From positions 106,740 through 170,739 of the forward strand of contig JAFTRX010000078.1 in NCBI GenBank assembly GCA_017462015.1: a DNA stretch of 64,000 nt. Direction: 5' to 3'. The notes under the pieces are model-generated. The model did not search any database. It saw nothing but the letters and a program-made list of their open reading frames with translations, and was not told the origin of the DNA. The stretch's first letter is position 1; each line of letters starts with the position of its first letter. Source of the DNA: Lentisphaeria bacterium. Lineage in GTDB: Bacteria > Verrucomicrobiota > Lentisphaeria > Victivallales > Victivallaceae. This document shows, piece after piece, positions 13,328 to 59,866 of this stretch. The position numbers were made by a program, and so were the translations under genes.

Positions 13328-13605
13328 CCATTATCTTCCGTTCAAAACTACTGCTCCAAGTGGAGCTGTGCAGTGCGCCAGCCTTACCATAAGCCGCGCA
13401 AGCGGTGCCCATTACCGCTACTTTGGTCGCCGTCAGGCGACACACACACACCAGCCCAACCCATAGGCGGTAATATCGCACAGCCGGGCGGGTTTTGCAA
13501 GCGAGAAGCGAGGGGAGTGGACTTGCGTCCTCGACCCGAGCGGCGAGCGCAGCAAGGCGCGCTCCGGCAAAGCGAGATTATCGCTCCCCCCTCATCCCGC
13601 CGTTG
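13328..13605. other. Gene-free interval with a fragment of the dispersed repeat family
   Basis: No supportable gene is seen. Bases 13511-13543 (GGAGTGGACTTGCGTCCTCG core) match the 'GTGGACT..CGTCCTC' module of the repeats at 40.85 and 59.79 kb. The remainder is GC-rich with short palindromes such as GTCGCCGTCAGGCGAC. Confidence 0.5.
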
Positions 13606-15545: not shown

Positions 15546-15641
15546 GACCGGAGGAGACTTAACGCTGTGGATATGTTGCGTTTGCGCTGTTGTCAGCACG
15601 CGATTTTAGGTGCGAACTGCAGATTTTTTTGGTGAAAAAAT

Positions 15642-15965
15642 CACAGCTGTCCCATGAAAAAACAGACTGCGGCGGCGCCTCGCGGGCAATCTTGCGGGCA
15701 AATCGGCGGATTCAGCTTCGGTCGATAACAGTAGTTAACTCCCTCTGCTTCACCTTGATTTACCCGCAACCTTGCCGCACGATGCATCCGCCGACCGCGA
15801 CAGACCATTTTGAACGCATCTCCACTGGTGACACGGTGCAAGGCACACGCGTGTTTTGCTTTTCGCAAAACAAAATCTTACAAAATCACTTTTTCAAAAA
15901 TCGGAGCATCCAAGCTGAAAAATCTGACAAAATCAACGAATTTTCAATTTTATGGGACAGTTGTG
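15642..15965 (-). mobile_element. MITE-like element copy 1 (324 bp)
   Basis: Terminal inverted repeats are CACAGCTGTCCCATGAAA at the left and the complement of CACAACTGTCCCATAAAA at the right (15948-15965). The flanks TGAAAAAAT (15633-15641) and TTAAAAAAT (15966-15974) form a 9-bp target duplication with one mismatch. The interior carries the family modules in minus orientation: GCGGCGCCTCGCGGGCAAT, TTGATTTACCCGCAACCTTG and GTTTTGCTTTTCGCAAAAC. No transposase is encoded. The right end is 32 bp from the -35 of the tRNA-Gly promoter. Confidence 0.8.
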
Positions 15966-15997
15966 TTAAAAAATGAAAAAATTTTCAAAAAAACGGT

Positions 15998-16025
15998 TTG
16001 ACAAATTCAAAAAATGAGCTATATT
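15998..16025 (+). promoter_or_regulatory. tRNA-Gly promoter
   Basis: TTGACA (15998-16003), 16 bp, then TATATT (16020-16025) within GAGCTATATTATGAG. Predicted transcription start is about 10 nt before the tRNA. Confidence 0.8.
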
Positions 16026-16041
16026 ATGAGTACAACAACGA

Positions 16042-16117
16042 GCGAGTGTAACTCAGCTGGTAGAGTATCACGTTGCCAACGTGACTGTCGCCGGTTCGAA
16101 TCCGGTCACTCGCTCCA
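16042..16117 (+). tRNA. tRNA-Gly (anticodon GCC)
   Basis: A 76-nt cloverleaf. The acceptor GCGAGTG (16042-16048) pairs with CACTCGC (16107-16113). The D-stem is ACTC/GAGT, the anticodon stem TCACG/CGTGA with loop TTGCCAA, and the T-arm GCCGG-TTCGAAT-CCGGT. The discriminator is T, as expected for tRNA-Gly, and CCA (16115-16117) is encoded. GCC reads GGC and GGT codons. Confidence 0.95.
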
Positions 16118-16133
16118 ATTTTTTTGTCTTTTT

Positions 16134-16157
16134 TCCGGGTCTCCGGATTTTTTTTTG
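16134..16157 (+). terminator. Short intrinsic terminator after tRNA-Gly
   Basis: The 5-bp stem TCCGG-GTCT-CCGGA is followed by a run of nine or more T. The stem is short but the T-tract is strong. Confidence 0.55.
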
Positions 16158-16158
16158 T

Positions 16159-16187
16159 TTGAATTCCCCCGGTTGCCATGCTATATT
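16159..16187 (+). promoter_or_regulatory. Promoter of the sialidase-like gene
   Basis: TTGAAT (16159-16164), 17 bp, then TATATT (16182-16187) in the context CATGCTATATTGTGG. Confidence 0.7.
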
Positions 16188-16221
16188 GTGGTGTGTTTTA
16201 AATATGGGAAGGATTACATTT

Positions 16222-17241
16222 ATGTACGAGCAATATGTTTCTCCCGGGATGAAGATGGTTCAGGGCTTTCCCGGATATAATTCATGGTCGATGATCGAAG
16301 CTGTCGGAACCCGGTTGATTTGTGCGTACAGCCGCGGAGCGGGACACTCCATAGACGAGGCGTGCCGCGCCGTGTATGCCCGCGTTTCCGATGACAATGG
16401 TGAGACGTGGCAGGAAGAGGTATTGGTGTTGAACAACGCCGACCACGGTGATGTCGCCAGCGGTTCCGGAGTTGATTCCTCTGGCGCGATGCTTCTGTGG
16501 ACGCGGAGCTGCCGCAGTGGGATTTTTCCGTTTGAAGGTCACTTTTCTCTGTTCCGGACGGTCGACGGGAAGAAATTTGAATTGCTCTCGATTCCGGAAC
16601 TTGCAGTACAGCCGATGCAGATAACCGGAATATTTTCTGTCCCCGGTGTCGGGCTGATGTCTCTGTGGTTTGCCGGAAATTACCGCGGCGGTGATGCGAA
16701 TTCATGGGGAACTCTGACCAGTTCCGATGACGGCAGAAGCTGGGTTCAGCACGTTGTCGGAGATCATCTTCCCAAGAGCCAGTGGCCGACGGAACCTTCA
16801 GCGGTTTATCTCGGTGACGGAAAAATACTGGCGATCGCCCGGAGAGAAAAGAGTCCGGATTCCAATGAGCTTCCGGTTCAGTTTCAGTTGGAATCGCAAG
16901 ATTACGGCAAAAGCTGGAGCGTGGCGCTGACTGAAATCAGTGATATCCGGGAATCGACCCCGGCATTGATCTTTGATCCGGAGACGGGAATAGTTTCCAA
17001 TTATTATTATCAGCGGATAGCGGGAACGCTCAAACGGCGCACCGCGCAGGCTTTTGATGTGTTCGGCAATCCGGCGGCGTGGTCGGCACCGGAAGTTATC
17101 ACCCGCGCAAGTCAGGATGATCATCATGCCGGAAATGTCAATGCCGCAGTTATGGGCAACACCCATTATCTGACCATCTATACCGGAAATGAAACTGATA
17201 CTGCGGTCGTGGTTTGTCCTGTTGCCGCTCCGGGAAAGTAA
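16222..17241 (+). CDS. Sialidase-superfamily (BNR/Asp-box) protein
   Basis: About 339 residues predicted to form a six-bladed beta-propeller. Three Asp-box repeats are clear: SDDNGETWQEE (about residue 58), SSDDGRSWVQ (about 175) and SQDYGKSWSV (about 230). No signal peptide is seen and the usual arginine triad cannot be confirmed, so an exo-sialidase activity is only one possibility; cytoplasmic homologues act on other glycans. ATG 16222 is chosen because GGAAGGA (16207-16213) sits 8 nt upstream and the promoter at 16159-16187 excludes the longer open frame. It is convergent with the TRIC channel gene, the stops abutting. Confidence 0.8.
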   Translation: MYEQYVSPGMKMVQGFPGYNSWSMIEAVGTRLICAYSRGAGHSIDEACRAVYARVSDDNGETWQEEVLVLNNADHGDVASGSGVDSSGAMLLWTRSCRSGIFPFEGHFSLFRTVDGKKFELLSIPELAVQPMQITGIFSVPGVGLMSLWFAGNYRGGDANSWGTLTSSDDGRSWVQHVVGDHLPKSQWPTEPSAVYLGDGKILAIARREKSPDSNELPVQFQLESQDYGKSWSVALTEISDIRESTPALIFDPETGIVSNYYYQRIAGTLKRRTAQAFDVFGNPAAWSAPEVITRASQDDHHAGNVNAAVMGNTHYLTIYTGNETDTAVVVCPVAAPGK

Positions 17242-17880
17242 TCAGCGGCGGCGCTTACGGTAGCTGACCAGGCGTCCTGCCGCCGGAAGCTGGATATTAT
17301 AATGTATCGCCAACAGCCGGATGGCGCAGACCAGAGTTGCAATCACTGCAAAATTGATTGCAAAGGGAAACTTTAACGGCAGCATCAAACAGTAAACACC
17401 TCCGCCGATAAGGGAAGCTGTGGCGTAAAAATCGCTCTTCAATACGACTGGGATTTTTCCGGTGAGCAAATCGCGGATGATACCGCCGCCGATGGCGGTA
17501 AAGACTCCGCACAGGATGATTCCGGTAAAGCCCAGCCCTTGAGTGAAACCTTTTTCCGCGCCGAGTGCGGTGAATACGCCAAGTCCGATCGCATCACAGA
17601 TTTTGATGATATTGCGTTTTTTGATCCAGAAGCGGGCTGTTGCGTAAGAGAGCAGTCCGACTGCAATGCATATAATGATGTAGTGCTGATTGGAGAGCGC
17701 GGCTACCGGAGTACAGCCGATGATGCAGTCCCGCACCATGCCTCCGCCCACGCCGACACAGCAGGCAAGTGCCGTTACGCCGAAAACATCCAGATGATGC
17801 CGGATGCCCTGGACGGCACCGGTTACGGCAAAGACGGCAGTTCCGAACAGGTCAAGAAGTAAGATGATCCAAGTTTCCAT
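17242..17880 (-). CDS. TRIC-type cation channel family protein (UPF0126)
   Basis: 212 residues with about seven transmembrane helices in two repeats. Each repeat carries the family motif GGGxxRD: VGGGMVRDCIIG (about residue 45) and IGGGIIRDLLTG (about residue 130). Prokaryotic TRIC proteins form trimeric K+/cation channels in the inner membrane. Length matches the family (about 205). Its own promoter is not obvious because a repeat element lies directly upstream. Neighbouring genes give no functional hint. Confidence 0.87.
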   Translation of the reverse strand: METWIILLLDLFGTAVFAVTGAVQGIRHHLDVFGVTALACCVGVGGGMVRDCIIGCTPVAALSNQHYIIICIAVGLLSYATARFWIKKRNIIKICDAIGLGVFTALGAEKGFTQGLGFTGIILCGVFTAIGGGIIRDLLTGKIPVVLKSDFYATASLIGGGVYCLMLPLKFPFAINFAVIATLVCAIRLLAIHYNIQLPAAGRLVSYRKRRR

Positions 17881-17908
17881 AGTGTTATATTGTCAGTCTT
17901 GAACAACC

Positions 17909-18102
17909 AACGGCGGCGCCTCGCGGGCGCTTCTTGCGGGCAAATCTTCGGACTTCCGGCTTCGTTTCACTACGCCGCGACAAGCATCCGCGAAAACAAG
18001 TACACCTTGCCACGGCGGAGCCTCTGCGGAGCCGGGTCCCTCGGCTTCGCCTTGATTTACCCCCAACCTTGCCTCGCGATCCATCCGCCGGTCGAGTTCA
18101 GC
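17909..18102 (-). repeat. Dispersed repeat family copy without terminal repeats
   Basis: Shares GGCGGCGCCTCGCGGGC, TTCTTGCGGGCAAATC and GATTTACCCCCAACCTTGCC with the MITE interior, in minus orientation. The left AT-rich module and the CACAGCTGTCCC termini are absent. Confidence 0.7.
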
Positions 18103-18112
18103 CTTCTTTAAA

Positions 18113-18285
18113 TCTGCGGCGGCGCCTTATGGGCAATCAGCGTTCCGCTGATTGCGTGAAGATGTGAAGGTGTGAAGTTCGCCCTTGCGGGCGTAAGGAT
18201 GTGATGTTTTTTATTTTTTGCTCCTCTCCTCCGCAGCCATTAAGGCGCAGGAGTATGCTCCACGATCCATCCGCCGGTCGCAAAC
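18113..18285 (-). repeat. Divergent or chimeric repeat copy
   Basis: The edges match the family (GCGGCGGCGCCTTATGGGCAA at the left; CACGATCCATCCGCCGGTCG near 18260-18279), but the interior differs. It has a perfect hairpin AATCAGCG-TTC-CGCTGATT (18135-18153) and a second, CGCCC-TTGC-GGGCG, near 18179. Confidence 0.5.
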
Positions 18286-18459
18286 AAGCTGTTTTATTGT
18301 TTTACAAAATTCTGGGCATTACCTATTGTTTATATAGTGAACTTTTTTATAATATATTGAATTTTTTATAAAATAACTCTTATTCGGAAAAAAATCAATC
18401 TGTTTTCAAAAATTTTATCCGGATTTTGCCGCGCTTGTTTGAGATAGTGGTGTGAATTT
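18286..18459. other. AT-rich gene-free spacer
   Basis: Very AT-rich, with runs such as TTTTTTATAATATATTG. No ORF, RNA or convincing promoter is seen. Confidence 0.5.
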
Positions 18460-18787
18460 CACAGCTGTCCCATAAAATCAGCAAAATGCTTGTTTTTCAA
18501 TTTTTTTTTTCAGCGGAAGAAAATTGGAGTTGAAAAAAGTGATTTTGTAAGATTTGGTTTTGCGAAAAGCAAAACGCGCGTGCGCAATGCGCCGCGCCAC
18601 CAGTGGCGATGTGTTCAAAACTGTCATGAACTCGACCGGCGGATGGATCGTGGAGCAAGGTTGCGGGTAAATCAAGGCGAAGCCGAGGGAGTGTACGACT
18701 GTACTCGACCGAGGATGAGTCCGCAGATTTGCCCGTAAGATTGCCCACGAGGCGTCGCCGCAAGTTGTCTTTTATGAGACAACTGTG
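18460..18787 (+). mobile_element. MITE-like element copy 2 (328 bp)
   Basis: The left terminus CACAGCTGTCCCATAAAAT (18460-18478) and the complement of the right terminus CACAGTTGTCTCATAAAAG form inverted repeats of about 19 bp with three mismatches. The flanks TGTGAATTT (18451-18459) and TGTAAATTT (18788-18796) form a 9-bp target duplication with one mismatch. The interior modules run in plus orientation: TTTTGCGAAAAGCAAAACG, CACCAGTGGCGATG and GGTTGCGGGTAAATCAAGG. There is no transposase. The right end lies 30 bp before the rnpB -35 box. Confidence 0.82.
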
Positions 18788-18817
18788 TGTAAATTTGAAA
18801 AAAGTTTTACTTTTATC

Positions 18818-18850: not shown

Positions 18851-19224
18851 AGAACGCTGTGGACATGGGCAATCGCGGCGGGGGAATTCGTTCCCGCGTT
18901 GAGGAAAGTCCGGACTGCACAGAGCAGGGAGCCCCTTTGAAAAGAGGGGTGCCGCAGACCATACTCTGCGGAAAGACCAGTGCAACAGAGAGAAGACCGC
19001 CGGTTGATTTTTCAGCCGGTAAGGGTGAAAGGGTGGGGTAAGAGCCCACCGGGCGGTAATGAGAGTTCCGCTGCAAGGTAAACTCCTCCCGCAGCAAGAC
19101 CAAATAGGGGACGAGTCGTTGCTCGCGACGTTACAAGTCCCGGGTTCTGGTCGCATGAGACAGATGATTGCCACCGCCGTAAGGCGGTACAGAATCCGGC
19201 TTACAGTGTCTGCGGCGTTCTTTT
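18851..19224 (+). ncRNA. rnpB: RNase P RNA, bacterial class A
   Basis: The catalytic RNA that matures tRNA 5' ends. Conserved blocks in order: GAGGAAAGTCCGGACT (CR-I, about 18900), ACAGAGAGAAGACCGCC (about 18984), AGGGTGAAAGGGTG...GGTAAGAGCCCACC, AGACAGATGATTGCC and ACAGAATCCGGCTTACAG (CR-V). Helix P1 forms between AAAGAACGC (18849-18857) and GCGTTCTTT (19215-19223). The closing T-run probably also terminates transcription. Length about 370 nt is usual for class A. The gene has its own promoter. Confidence 0.95.
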
Positions 19225-40798: not shown

Positions 40799-41015
40799 GC
40801 AATCGGCGGATGGATCGCGAACAAGGTTGGGGGTAAATCAAGGCGGTGGCGAGGGCGTGGACTCACGTCCTCAACCGAGCCGACGTCCGCCGATTTGCTC
40901 CCAAGATTGTCCGCGAGGCGCCGCCGCAGGTTATATTTTTCAAAAAAGGATAATTTCAAACTTCCCAGTCCGCCGATTTGCTCCCAAGATTGTCCGCGAG
41001 GCGCCGCCGCAGGTT
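40799..41015 (+). repeat. Dispersed repeat family copy with duplicated 48-bp tail
   Basis: Carries GGCGGATGGATCGCG, GGTTGGGGGTAAATCAAGG and GTGGACTCACGTCCTC in plus orientation but lacks the left module and terminal repeats. Its last 48 bp (40885-40932, GTCCGCCGATTTGCTCCCAA and following) are repeated exactly at 40968-41015, 83 bp downstream. Confidence 0.8.
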
Positions 41016-52345: not shown

Positions 52346-52400
52346 GGAAACGGCAAAATTCGAGTCTTGACGGAATTGTCCTCCCGTTTGCTCAACTTTT

Positions 52401-52530
52401 CTTCTGCCATCCAGACTTTACTGTCGGTTATGGAATTGCACCATATCTGCCGGAAATGACACTTCCGGCTCGCGGACTTTACCGCCGGTCAGGGAATTAC
52501 CCGCTGTCACAGATTCACCCTGCCCTGAAG
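52401..52530 (-). ncRNA. FMN riboswitch (RFN element)
   Basis: Read on the minus strand it shows the conserved RFN blocks in order: CTTCAGGGCAGGGTGAA, ATTCCCTGACCGGCGGTA, AAGTCCGCGAGC, a variable GCCGGAAGTG/TTTCCGGC arm, GGTGCAATTCCATAACCGAC, AGTAAAGTCTGGATGGCAG and AAG closing P1. It binds FMN and lowers expression of ribBA when FMN is abundant (established for the family). Confidence 0.95.
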
Positions 52531-52545
52531 ATTATCACAGATAAT

Positions 52546-52624: not shown

Positions 52625-52833
52625 TGCAGCTGTCCCGTAAAAGCAGTGAAACATTTGTTTCCTCAATTTTTTCAATGGAAGATAATCGGCTTTTGAAAAA
52701 AATGATTTTGCCCGATTTTGTTTTGCGCAAGCAAAACGCGCGTGCGCAACGCGCCGCGCCACCAGTTGGAATGCGTTCAACGCAGGCATGAACTCGACCA
52801 GCGCCGCCGCAGGTTTTTTTATGAAACCATGCA
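52625..52833 (+). mobile_element. MITE-like element copy 3, internally deleted
   Basis: The left terminus (CAGCTGTCCCGTAAAA, 52627-52642) and the left and middle modules (TTGCGCAAGCAAAACGCGCG, CGCGCCACCAGT, CATGAACTCGACC) match copy 2. The sequence then jumps from AACTCGACC to GCGCCGCCGCAGG, so the 3' modules are lost. The right terminus (TTTATGAAACCATGCA) is degenerate and no clean target duplication is seen. It ends 18 bp before the carB -35. Confidence 0.65.
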
Positions 52834-59658: not shown

Positions 59659-59866
59659 TTTTGTTTTGCGTAAGCAAAACGCGCGTGCGCTATGCGCCGC
59701 GCCACCAGTGAAGATGCGTTCAAAACTGCCATGAACTCGACCGGCGGATGGATCGTGGGCAAGGTTGGGGGTAAATCAAGGTGAAGCTGAAGGAGTGGAC
59801 TTCCGTCCTCGACTGAAGCTGAATCCGCCGATTTGCCCCCAAGATTGCCCGCGAGGCGCCGCCGTT
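59659..59866 (+). repeat. Dispersed repeat family copy 4 (MITE interior, no terminal repeats)
   Basis: Plus orientation, all modules present: TTTTGCGTAAGCAAAACGCG, CGCGCCACCAGTGAAGATG, CATGAACTCGACCGGCGG, GGTTGGGGGTAAATCAAGG, GTGGACTTCCGTCCTC and GATTGCCCGCGAGGCGCCG. The CACAGCTGTCCC termini are missing. It ends 31 bp before the purA -35. Confidence 0.78.

Follow-up and report, generated by a model that had tools for sequence, protein, structure and literature searches.

Miniature inverted-repeat transposable elements beside RNA genes in a Lentisphaeria genome, their probable IS4-family driver and a shared hairpin passenger

The window analyzed here is a stretch of 64,000 nucleotides from a Lentisphaeria bacterium (GenBank assembly GCA_017462015.1, contig JAFTRX010000078.1, positions 106,740 to 170,739 of the forward strand). 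It contains two well-preserved copies (copies 1 and 2) of a short element with inverted ends, a degraded copy and a relic (Table 1). Both good copies are intergenic and lie 69-76 bp away from RNA genes, those of tRNA-Gly and RNase P RNA. They are in opposite orientation, and 262 of 319 aligned bases (82%) are identical. As described below, copies 1 and 2 are mobile miniature inverted-repeat transposable elements (MITEs). Their kind is ordinary; they can be tied to a transposase lineage, and the passenger that they share is unusual.

The inverted ends, sharing the sequence CACAGNTRTCYCATRARA (CACAG ends), are 18 bp in length, and 16/18 positions match within copy 1 and within copy 2. Matching between the ends does not go past 18 bp in either copy; therefore, the length of 18-19 bp given in a preliminary description of this DNA was reduced to 18 bp, with imperfect matching. 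Direct reading confirmed the positions and orientation of the two copies in that description, as well as the imperfect 9-bp flanks with one mismatch per pair. The degraded, internally deleted copy is also present. Its flanks agree at only about 5/9 (by eye), which means that no duplication can be claimed for it. The absence of coding stated previously was borne out: every one of the six reading frames is interrupted by at least one stop in 17 to 19 of 19 copies, and Pfam searches at E up to 1 gave no family for either of the two open frames that traverse the window copies. A protein-coding function thus finds no support.

Table 1. Positions of the MITE copies, their flanks, hairpin modules and RNA features in the window
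Feature	Position	Strand	Remarks
MITE copy 1	15642-15965	+	324 bp; 76 bp from the tRNA-Gly gene
Left 9-bp target duplication, copy 1	15633-15641	.	TGAAAAAAT
Right 9-bp target duplication, copy 1	15966-15974	.	TTAAAAAAT
MITE copy 2	18460-18787	-	328 bp; 69 bp from the RNase P RNA gene
9-bp target duplication, copy 2	18451-18459	.	TGTGAATTT
9-bp target duplication, copy 2	18788-18796	.	TGTAAATTT
Degraded, internally deleted MITE copy	52625-52833	-	left end with 3 mismatches
MITE relic without ends	59659-59864	-	holds hairpin module 59742-59865 (139.4 bits)
Hp125 in copy 1	15669-15793	+	model R1, 138.2 bits
Hp125 in copy 2	18637-18761	-	model R1, 137.3 bits; folded
Hairpin module, loop replaced by another hairpin	17910-18090	+	R1, 72.9 bits; no CACAG ends
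Divergent hairpin module, adjoining the 17910-18090 module	18116-18276	+	R1, 26.2 bits, E 0.0008; weak match
Hairpin module	40804-40927	-	model R1; second-family right end TTTCACAAAATTTGGGACATTAAC beyond
Divergent hairpin module	13468-13584	-	R1, 29.8 bits, E 0.00012; weak match
tRNA-Gly	16042-16117		
RNase P RNA, class A	18857-19219		
FMN (flavin mononucleotide) riboswitch	52395-52536		

MITEs are short, non-coding, multicopy elements with inverted ends, fixed-length duplications and ends resembling those of a full-size element. The present family is likewise short and non-coding, with terminal inverted repeats, many copies and a fixed 9-bp duplication. In the genome of the window (G000; 2.81 Mb, 131 contigs, 92.8% complete), the end pattern at up to 2 mismatches was found 117 times, against 1 for the reversed-pattern control. 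Pairs of ends were evaluated in stretches from 62 contigs, chosen for having ends or element matches. The 9-bp flanks match at 8/9 or better in 13 of the 23 good pairs (convergent, with up to 3 mismatches in both ends together) and exactly in nine of them; the largest count of such flank pairs in 10,000 permutations was 6. When the weak pairs are included, 14 of all 38 candidates have such flanks, and mean flank identity is highest, at 0.54, for a length of 9 bp; the remaining lengths between 3 and 13 give 0.27-0.41. The AT fraction of the duplicated 9-mers is 0.86, while the window is 48% AT. Because the elements with duplications are 157 to 618 bp long, the CACAG family is defined by its ends and not by a fixed length. 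The best 40 of 259 candidates were scored in the first search of this genome for the element, so that copy counts from it are lower bounds.

CACAG ends at up to 1 mismatch are present in 17 of 60 genomes, that of the window included. They are numerous only in G000 (113), G018 (87), G003 (56) and G011 (10), all of the same genus. Many ends in G000 lie about 120-180 bp from a contig end (for example, in contigs C2, C25, C52 and C80), which suggests that the CACAG family breaks the assembly. In G030 (C23:128886-128922, locus L185), two CACAG ends meet directly, head to head, forming a 37-bp palindrome that encloses no element. A literature search at the level of titles and abstracts, on Lentisphaerae MITEs, IS4 MITEs and imperfect palindromes, did not find the CACAG family.

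An empty site for copy 1 was found in G003. This genome is collinear with the window on either side of copy 1 at 82-83% identity, and has 39 bp where the window has 419. The element and one duplication account for 333 bp of the copy-1 length difference; the left flank in G003 is also shorter, which means that some of the difference is flank and not element. At the junction, G003 reads GGTAAAAAATGCAAAAATTTTC, whereas the window reads GGTGAAAAAAT[element]TTAAAAAATGAAAAAATTTTC; the same empty site may also be written as GGTAAAAAATG in G003 against GGTGAAAAAAT[element]TTAAAAAATG in the window. Elsewhere in G003 (C13:9063-9389), a 97%-identical copy has TTTATATTT on both sides, that is, an exact 9-bp duplication. 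The 9-bp duplications, this empty site and the full-size elements with similar ends in relatives support the earlier assignment of the elements to MITEs; most of the checks proposed with that assignment favored it.

The ends of the MITEs lead to a candidate driver within the genus. At seven contig ends of G011, a promoter-like stretch comes after the end CACAGATATCCCATAAAA, and behind it the first codons of an open frame, of which only about 13 are readable. The same end, promoter-like stretch and start of an open frame are seen in G012. The sequence CACAGATATCCCATAAAA is also a frequent MITE end in G000, and the ends in both G011 and G012 fit the MITE pattern without a mismatch. The first 40 residues in G012 are 59% identical to the start of the G003 transposase, with a DUF4372 score of 19.1 bits, below the cut-off of 25. 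The G012 contig was rejected as a full driver, since the transposase-like similarity stops after about 40 residues. The arrangement recurs in G003, G013 and G020, where the ends, CACAGCCATCCCGTAAAA or CACAGTCATCTCGTAAAA, are two mismatches away from the MITE pattern. In G003, the frame is 67 residues long and DUF4372 scores above its cut-off; in G020, it is 179 residues long and 96% identical over 137 residues to the transposase of G013. The latter protein has 411 residues, matches DDE_Tnp_1 at 88.8 bits and the NCBIfam IS4 transposase at 208 bits (cut-off 115), and carries the Y(2)R(3)E(6)K motif. Its gene is at a contig end and lacks its left end, and a right end past the gene was not recognizable. 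The promoter-stretch pattern at up to 3 mismatches occurs in 6 of 34 genus genomes, nine times in G011 and once each in G012, G003, G013, G020 and G031, with none in G000. Matches to the 411-residue protein at E up to 0.001 were found in 10 of the 34 genus genomes and none in G000.

Complete elements were found in more distant relatives. A scan of genome contigs gave 127 relatives of the 411-residue protein, of which 80 were kept, several loci coming from one genome. In the 420 bp upstream, 65 of the 80 carry an end like CACAGNNRTCYCRTAA at up to 3 mismatches, against 9 for the reversed pattern. Both ends were recognized in 57 of the 80, the right end at up to 4 mismatches, a loose threshold without a control. 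An exact 9-bp duplication surrounds 17 of these 57 two-ended relatives. The complete element has a length of 1550 bp in Oligosphaera ethanolica and of 1444 bp in Lentisphaera marina. Of four copies of this length per species (two-ended ones in the former), three have exact 9-bp duplications and the fourth has none. One same-genus transposase is identical to one in a Lentisphaeria metagenome-assembled genome from sheep colon.

According to Table 1 of "IS4 family goes genomic" (2008, PMC2266710), the IS4Sa subgroup has ends CA------T, duplications of 8-10 bp, a size of 1150-1750 bp and a YREK motif. The Oligosphaera and Lentisphaera elements have such ends, a duplication length within 8-10 bp and a size within 1150-1750 bp. 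The driver thus seems best placed in IS4Sa, a placement made by the features of that table and not by a tree.

Taken together, the elements are very likely MITEs belonging to an insertion sequence of the IS4 family, and IS4Sa is the subgroup that fits best. In this model, the full-size element would encode an IS4-type DDE transposase, which would recognize the shared 18-bp ends and insert the element into AT-rich DNA, leaving 9-bp duplications. The action of this transposase in trans on the MITE ends is proposed from sequence, whereas the ends, the duplications, one insertion against its empty site and the full-size elements in relatives, with similar ends and 9-bp duplications, are established by comparison. 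The internal hairpin is a passenger sequence, dispensable for movement.

Several observations weigh against this interpretation. Copy 2 is common to the window and G003 at the RNase P locus, where the G003 copy, upstream of RNase P, is internally deleted, and hence there is no empty site for it. The comparison with empty sites proposed in the preliminary description thus gave an absence for copy 1, at the orthologous place in G003, and a shared presence for copy 2, the insertion of which must be older than the split of the two genomes. In G018 and G030, no element was seen upstream of RNase P; another gene lies there, and this locus is uninformative as an empty site for copy 2. Duplications recur elsewhere in G000, as given above, but 10 of the 23 good pairs have none; ends of this latter kind had been named in the preliminary description as evidence against a MITE. 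Among the 57 two-ended relatives, 40 have no duplication at 8/9.

The driver itself raises further difficulties. As stated previously, it is not in the window, and in the whole genome an IS4-type transposase was not found by DUF4372, a 67-residue N-terminal query, the 411-residue query or the left-end pattern. Thus, a genome 92.8% complete in 131 contigs is without a found transposase of this kind. Multicopy elements assemble poorly. The copies are probably stranded, or last moved while the driver was present. The genome-wide search with the terminus suggested earlier yielded no full-length transposase element in G000; similar-ended complete elements are present in Oligosphaera and Lentisphaera, and starts of such elements in the genus. 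Within the genus, no complete two-ended element was recovered. In G011 and G012, where the end equals that of the MITE exactly, only the first residues of the frame are readable, which slightly weakens the IS4 assignment. In addition, the MITEs and the full-size elements share their ends and not their subterminal sequence (by eye), and G011, the genome richest in driver ends, holds only one other MITE-like end.

Movement by another transposase with similar ends, such as the degenerate IS4 relatives of G018 with ends CACTGCTGTCCGGTAAAA or a different family, has to be considered. G018 is rich in MITE ends (87) and has no left end of the promoter-stretch type, and the remnants of its DUF4372 transposase are bounded by CACTGCTGTCCGGTAAAA-like ends. 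However, 3 or 4 positions in these ends deviate from the MITE pattern, and the transposase remnants are split into short frames, whereas the ends in G011 and G012 fit the pattern exactly, so this alternative seems improbable. The G018 remnants with CACTGCTGTCCGGTAAAA-like ends, at loci L187 and L191 (992 bp end to end in L187), form a similar-ended lineage. It is far less probable still that the elements are immobile, conserved intergenic repeats of the repetitive extragenic palindromic (REP) or enterobacterial repetitive intergenic consensus (ERIC) kind, serving regulation or RNA structure, with flanks alike by chance in AT-rich DNA. The hairpin with compensatory changes in the interior, the closeness of the window copies to RNA genes and the good pairs lacking duplications would suit such repeats. 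For the whole element, they are contradicted by the empty site in G003 together with the near-identical copy in an exact duplication; moreover, flank identity peaks at 9 bp only, and the duplication count exceeds that of every permutation.

Beyond the preliminary description, a stretch of about 125 bp inside the element is a distinct hairpin repeat that occurs genus-wide, called Hp125 here. Many members of the genus have, without CACAG ends, a repeat that matches element positions 26-153; at E up to 0.001, it is present in 19 of 60 genomes, including one from outside the genus whose only match is weak. With model R1 under stricter filters, the module was found in 18 of the 60 genomes, that is, 18/34 of the genus and 0/26 of the others. 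At least 58 modules each are present in G000, G012 and G015; the best 58 of 1459 candidates were scored for G000, and the counts are lower bounds. The window holds seven R1 modules, two in the MITE copies and one in the relic; two of the seven are weak. In the region 17881-18334, two modules lie in a row, one holding a GTGAAGATGTGAAGGTGTGAAG-type stretch, and G003 has about 21 bp there instead of 454. Modules in tandem were also observed at L147 (G017:C40), L148 (G026:C76) and L367 (G015:C16), about 150 bp apart in G017.

The module is described by a 43-pair hairpin, with 90.6% of cells paired in 34 copies and strong covariation. Cells changed on both sides number 149 in these copies; shuffles give 57.9 +/- 6.5, and slid versions of the structure no more than 20. 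The structure was drawn from the same sequences and is thus favored over its slid versions. Further pair types are not above shuffles, since 487 of 500 shuffles reach the observed value. Folding of both strands was confined to the copy-2 module, and there the opposite strand gave the better fold (-63.8 against -44 kcal/mol). A.C mismatches (G.U pairs when read on the opposite strand) exceed G.T mismatches (70 against 31), with cells that are not independent. The compensatory changes and the wobble bias hint at RNA-level selection on the hairpin. Rfam 15 at gathering scores gave only RNase P, the FMN riboswitch and tRNA in the window and left the module without a family; one locus (L019), searched at E up to 5, gave nothing on the module. 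The candidate RNA strand is denoted the CGGCGGATGGATCG / CGGCGGATGG strand. It seems unlikely, though worth considering, that the 125-bp hairpin has a function as a structured element, probably as an RNA from the CGGCGGATGGATCG strand, with its fold under selection, and that it spreads genus-wide inside several MITE families with different transposases.

The same hairpin occurs in a second MITE family of 229-324 bp with ends like GGTGTTGTCTCATTTTTTGTGAAAAA. In this family, flank identity peaks at 8 bp (0.78, against at most 0.51), and an exact 8-bp duplication is present in 5 of 11 elements. These 11 came from loci chosen for the hairpin, and that 11/11 carry it is uninformative on its frequency. 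Members with ends like G[GT]T[AGT]TTGTCTCATTTTTTGTGAAAA were observed in the window (minus strand, 40804-40927 and about 117 bp beyond) and at L371, L375, L157, L302 and other loci. Similarity between the two families is confined to the hairpin, short neighboring stretches and short fragments. In 40 further modules (20 from G000 and 20 from relatives), loose patterns for the second-family ends were found on both sides in 10, on one side in 17 and on neither in 13. Nested copies at C64:41212 and C11:2908, as well as a chimera at L359 with one end of each family, suggest that the hairpin was transferred through nested insertion between the two families, together with recombination. CACAG elements of 157 and 207 bp have exact duplications and no match to the hairpin profile; therefore, the hairpin is not needed for movement and is cargo.

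It might be supposed that the module is instead an independently mobile unit which inserted into both MITE families, given its presence in 18 of 34 genus genomes, its many locations without CACAG ends, its tandem and nested arrangements and the different ends of the two families. However, no duplication proper to the module was seen in the flanks inspected (by eye, without a statistical test), and nested insertion with recombination is simpler, since both nested copies and the L359 chimera exist. Independent mobility is thus possible but rather doubtful.

The probable IS4-type driver links a previously unassigned repeat family to a specific transposase lineage of Lentisphaerota and relatives. 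In addition, one conserved hairpin is placed in two MITE families differing in their ends and duplication lengths. This makes testable the idea that palindromic intergenic repeats multiply as MITE passengers. Since many ends are near contig ends, these repeats may also fragment assemblies of these genomes.

Like MITEs of bacterial insertion sequences, the window elements are short, non-coding and multicopy, with inverted ends, fixed-length duplications and ends like those of full-size elements. Here, however, much of the interior is a hairpin that is also present in a second, differently ended MITE family, and this interior is not visibly a remnant of a parent element. Hp125 resembles the ERIC sequences of enterobacteria in being an imperfect palindrome of about 125 bp, multicopy and confined to one bacterial group; it differs in its host organisms and in its location inside identified MITEs, and the likeness drawn here is one of description. 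With the IS4Sa subgroup, as tabulated in PMC2266710, the elements share ends that start with CA and have T at position 9, and the full-size elements in addition appear to share the duplication length, size and YREK motif. The window elements, at 324-328 bp and with no sign of coding, have only the ends in common with that subgroup.

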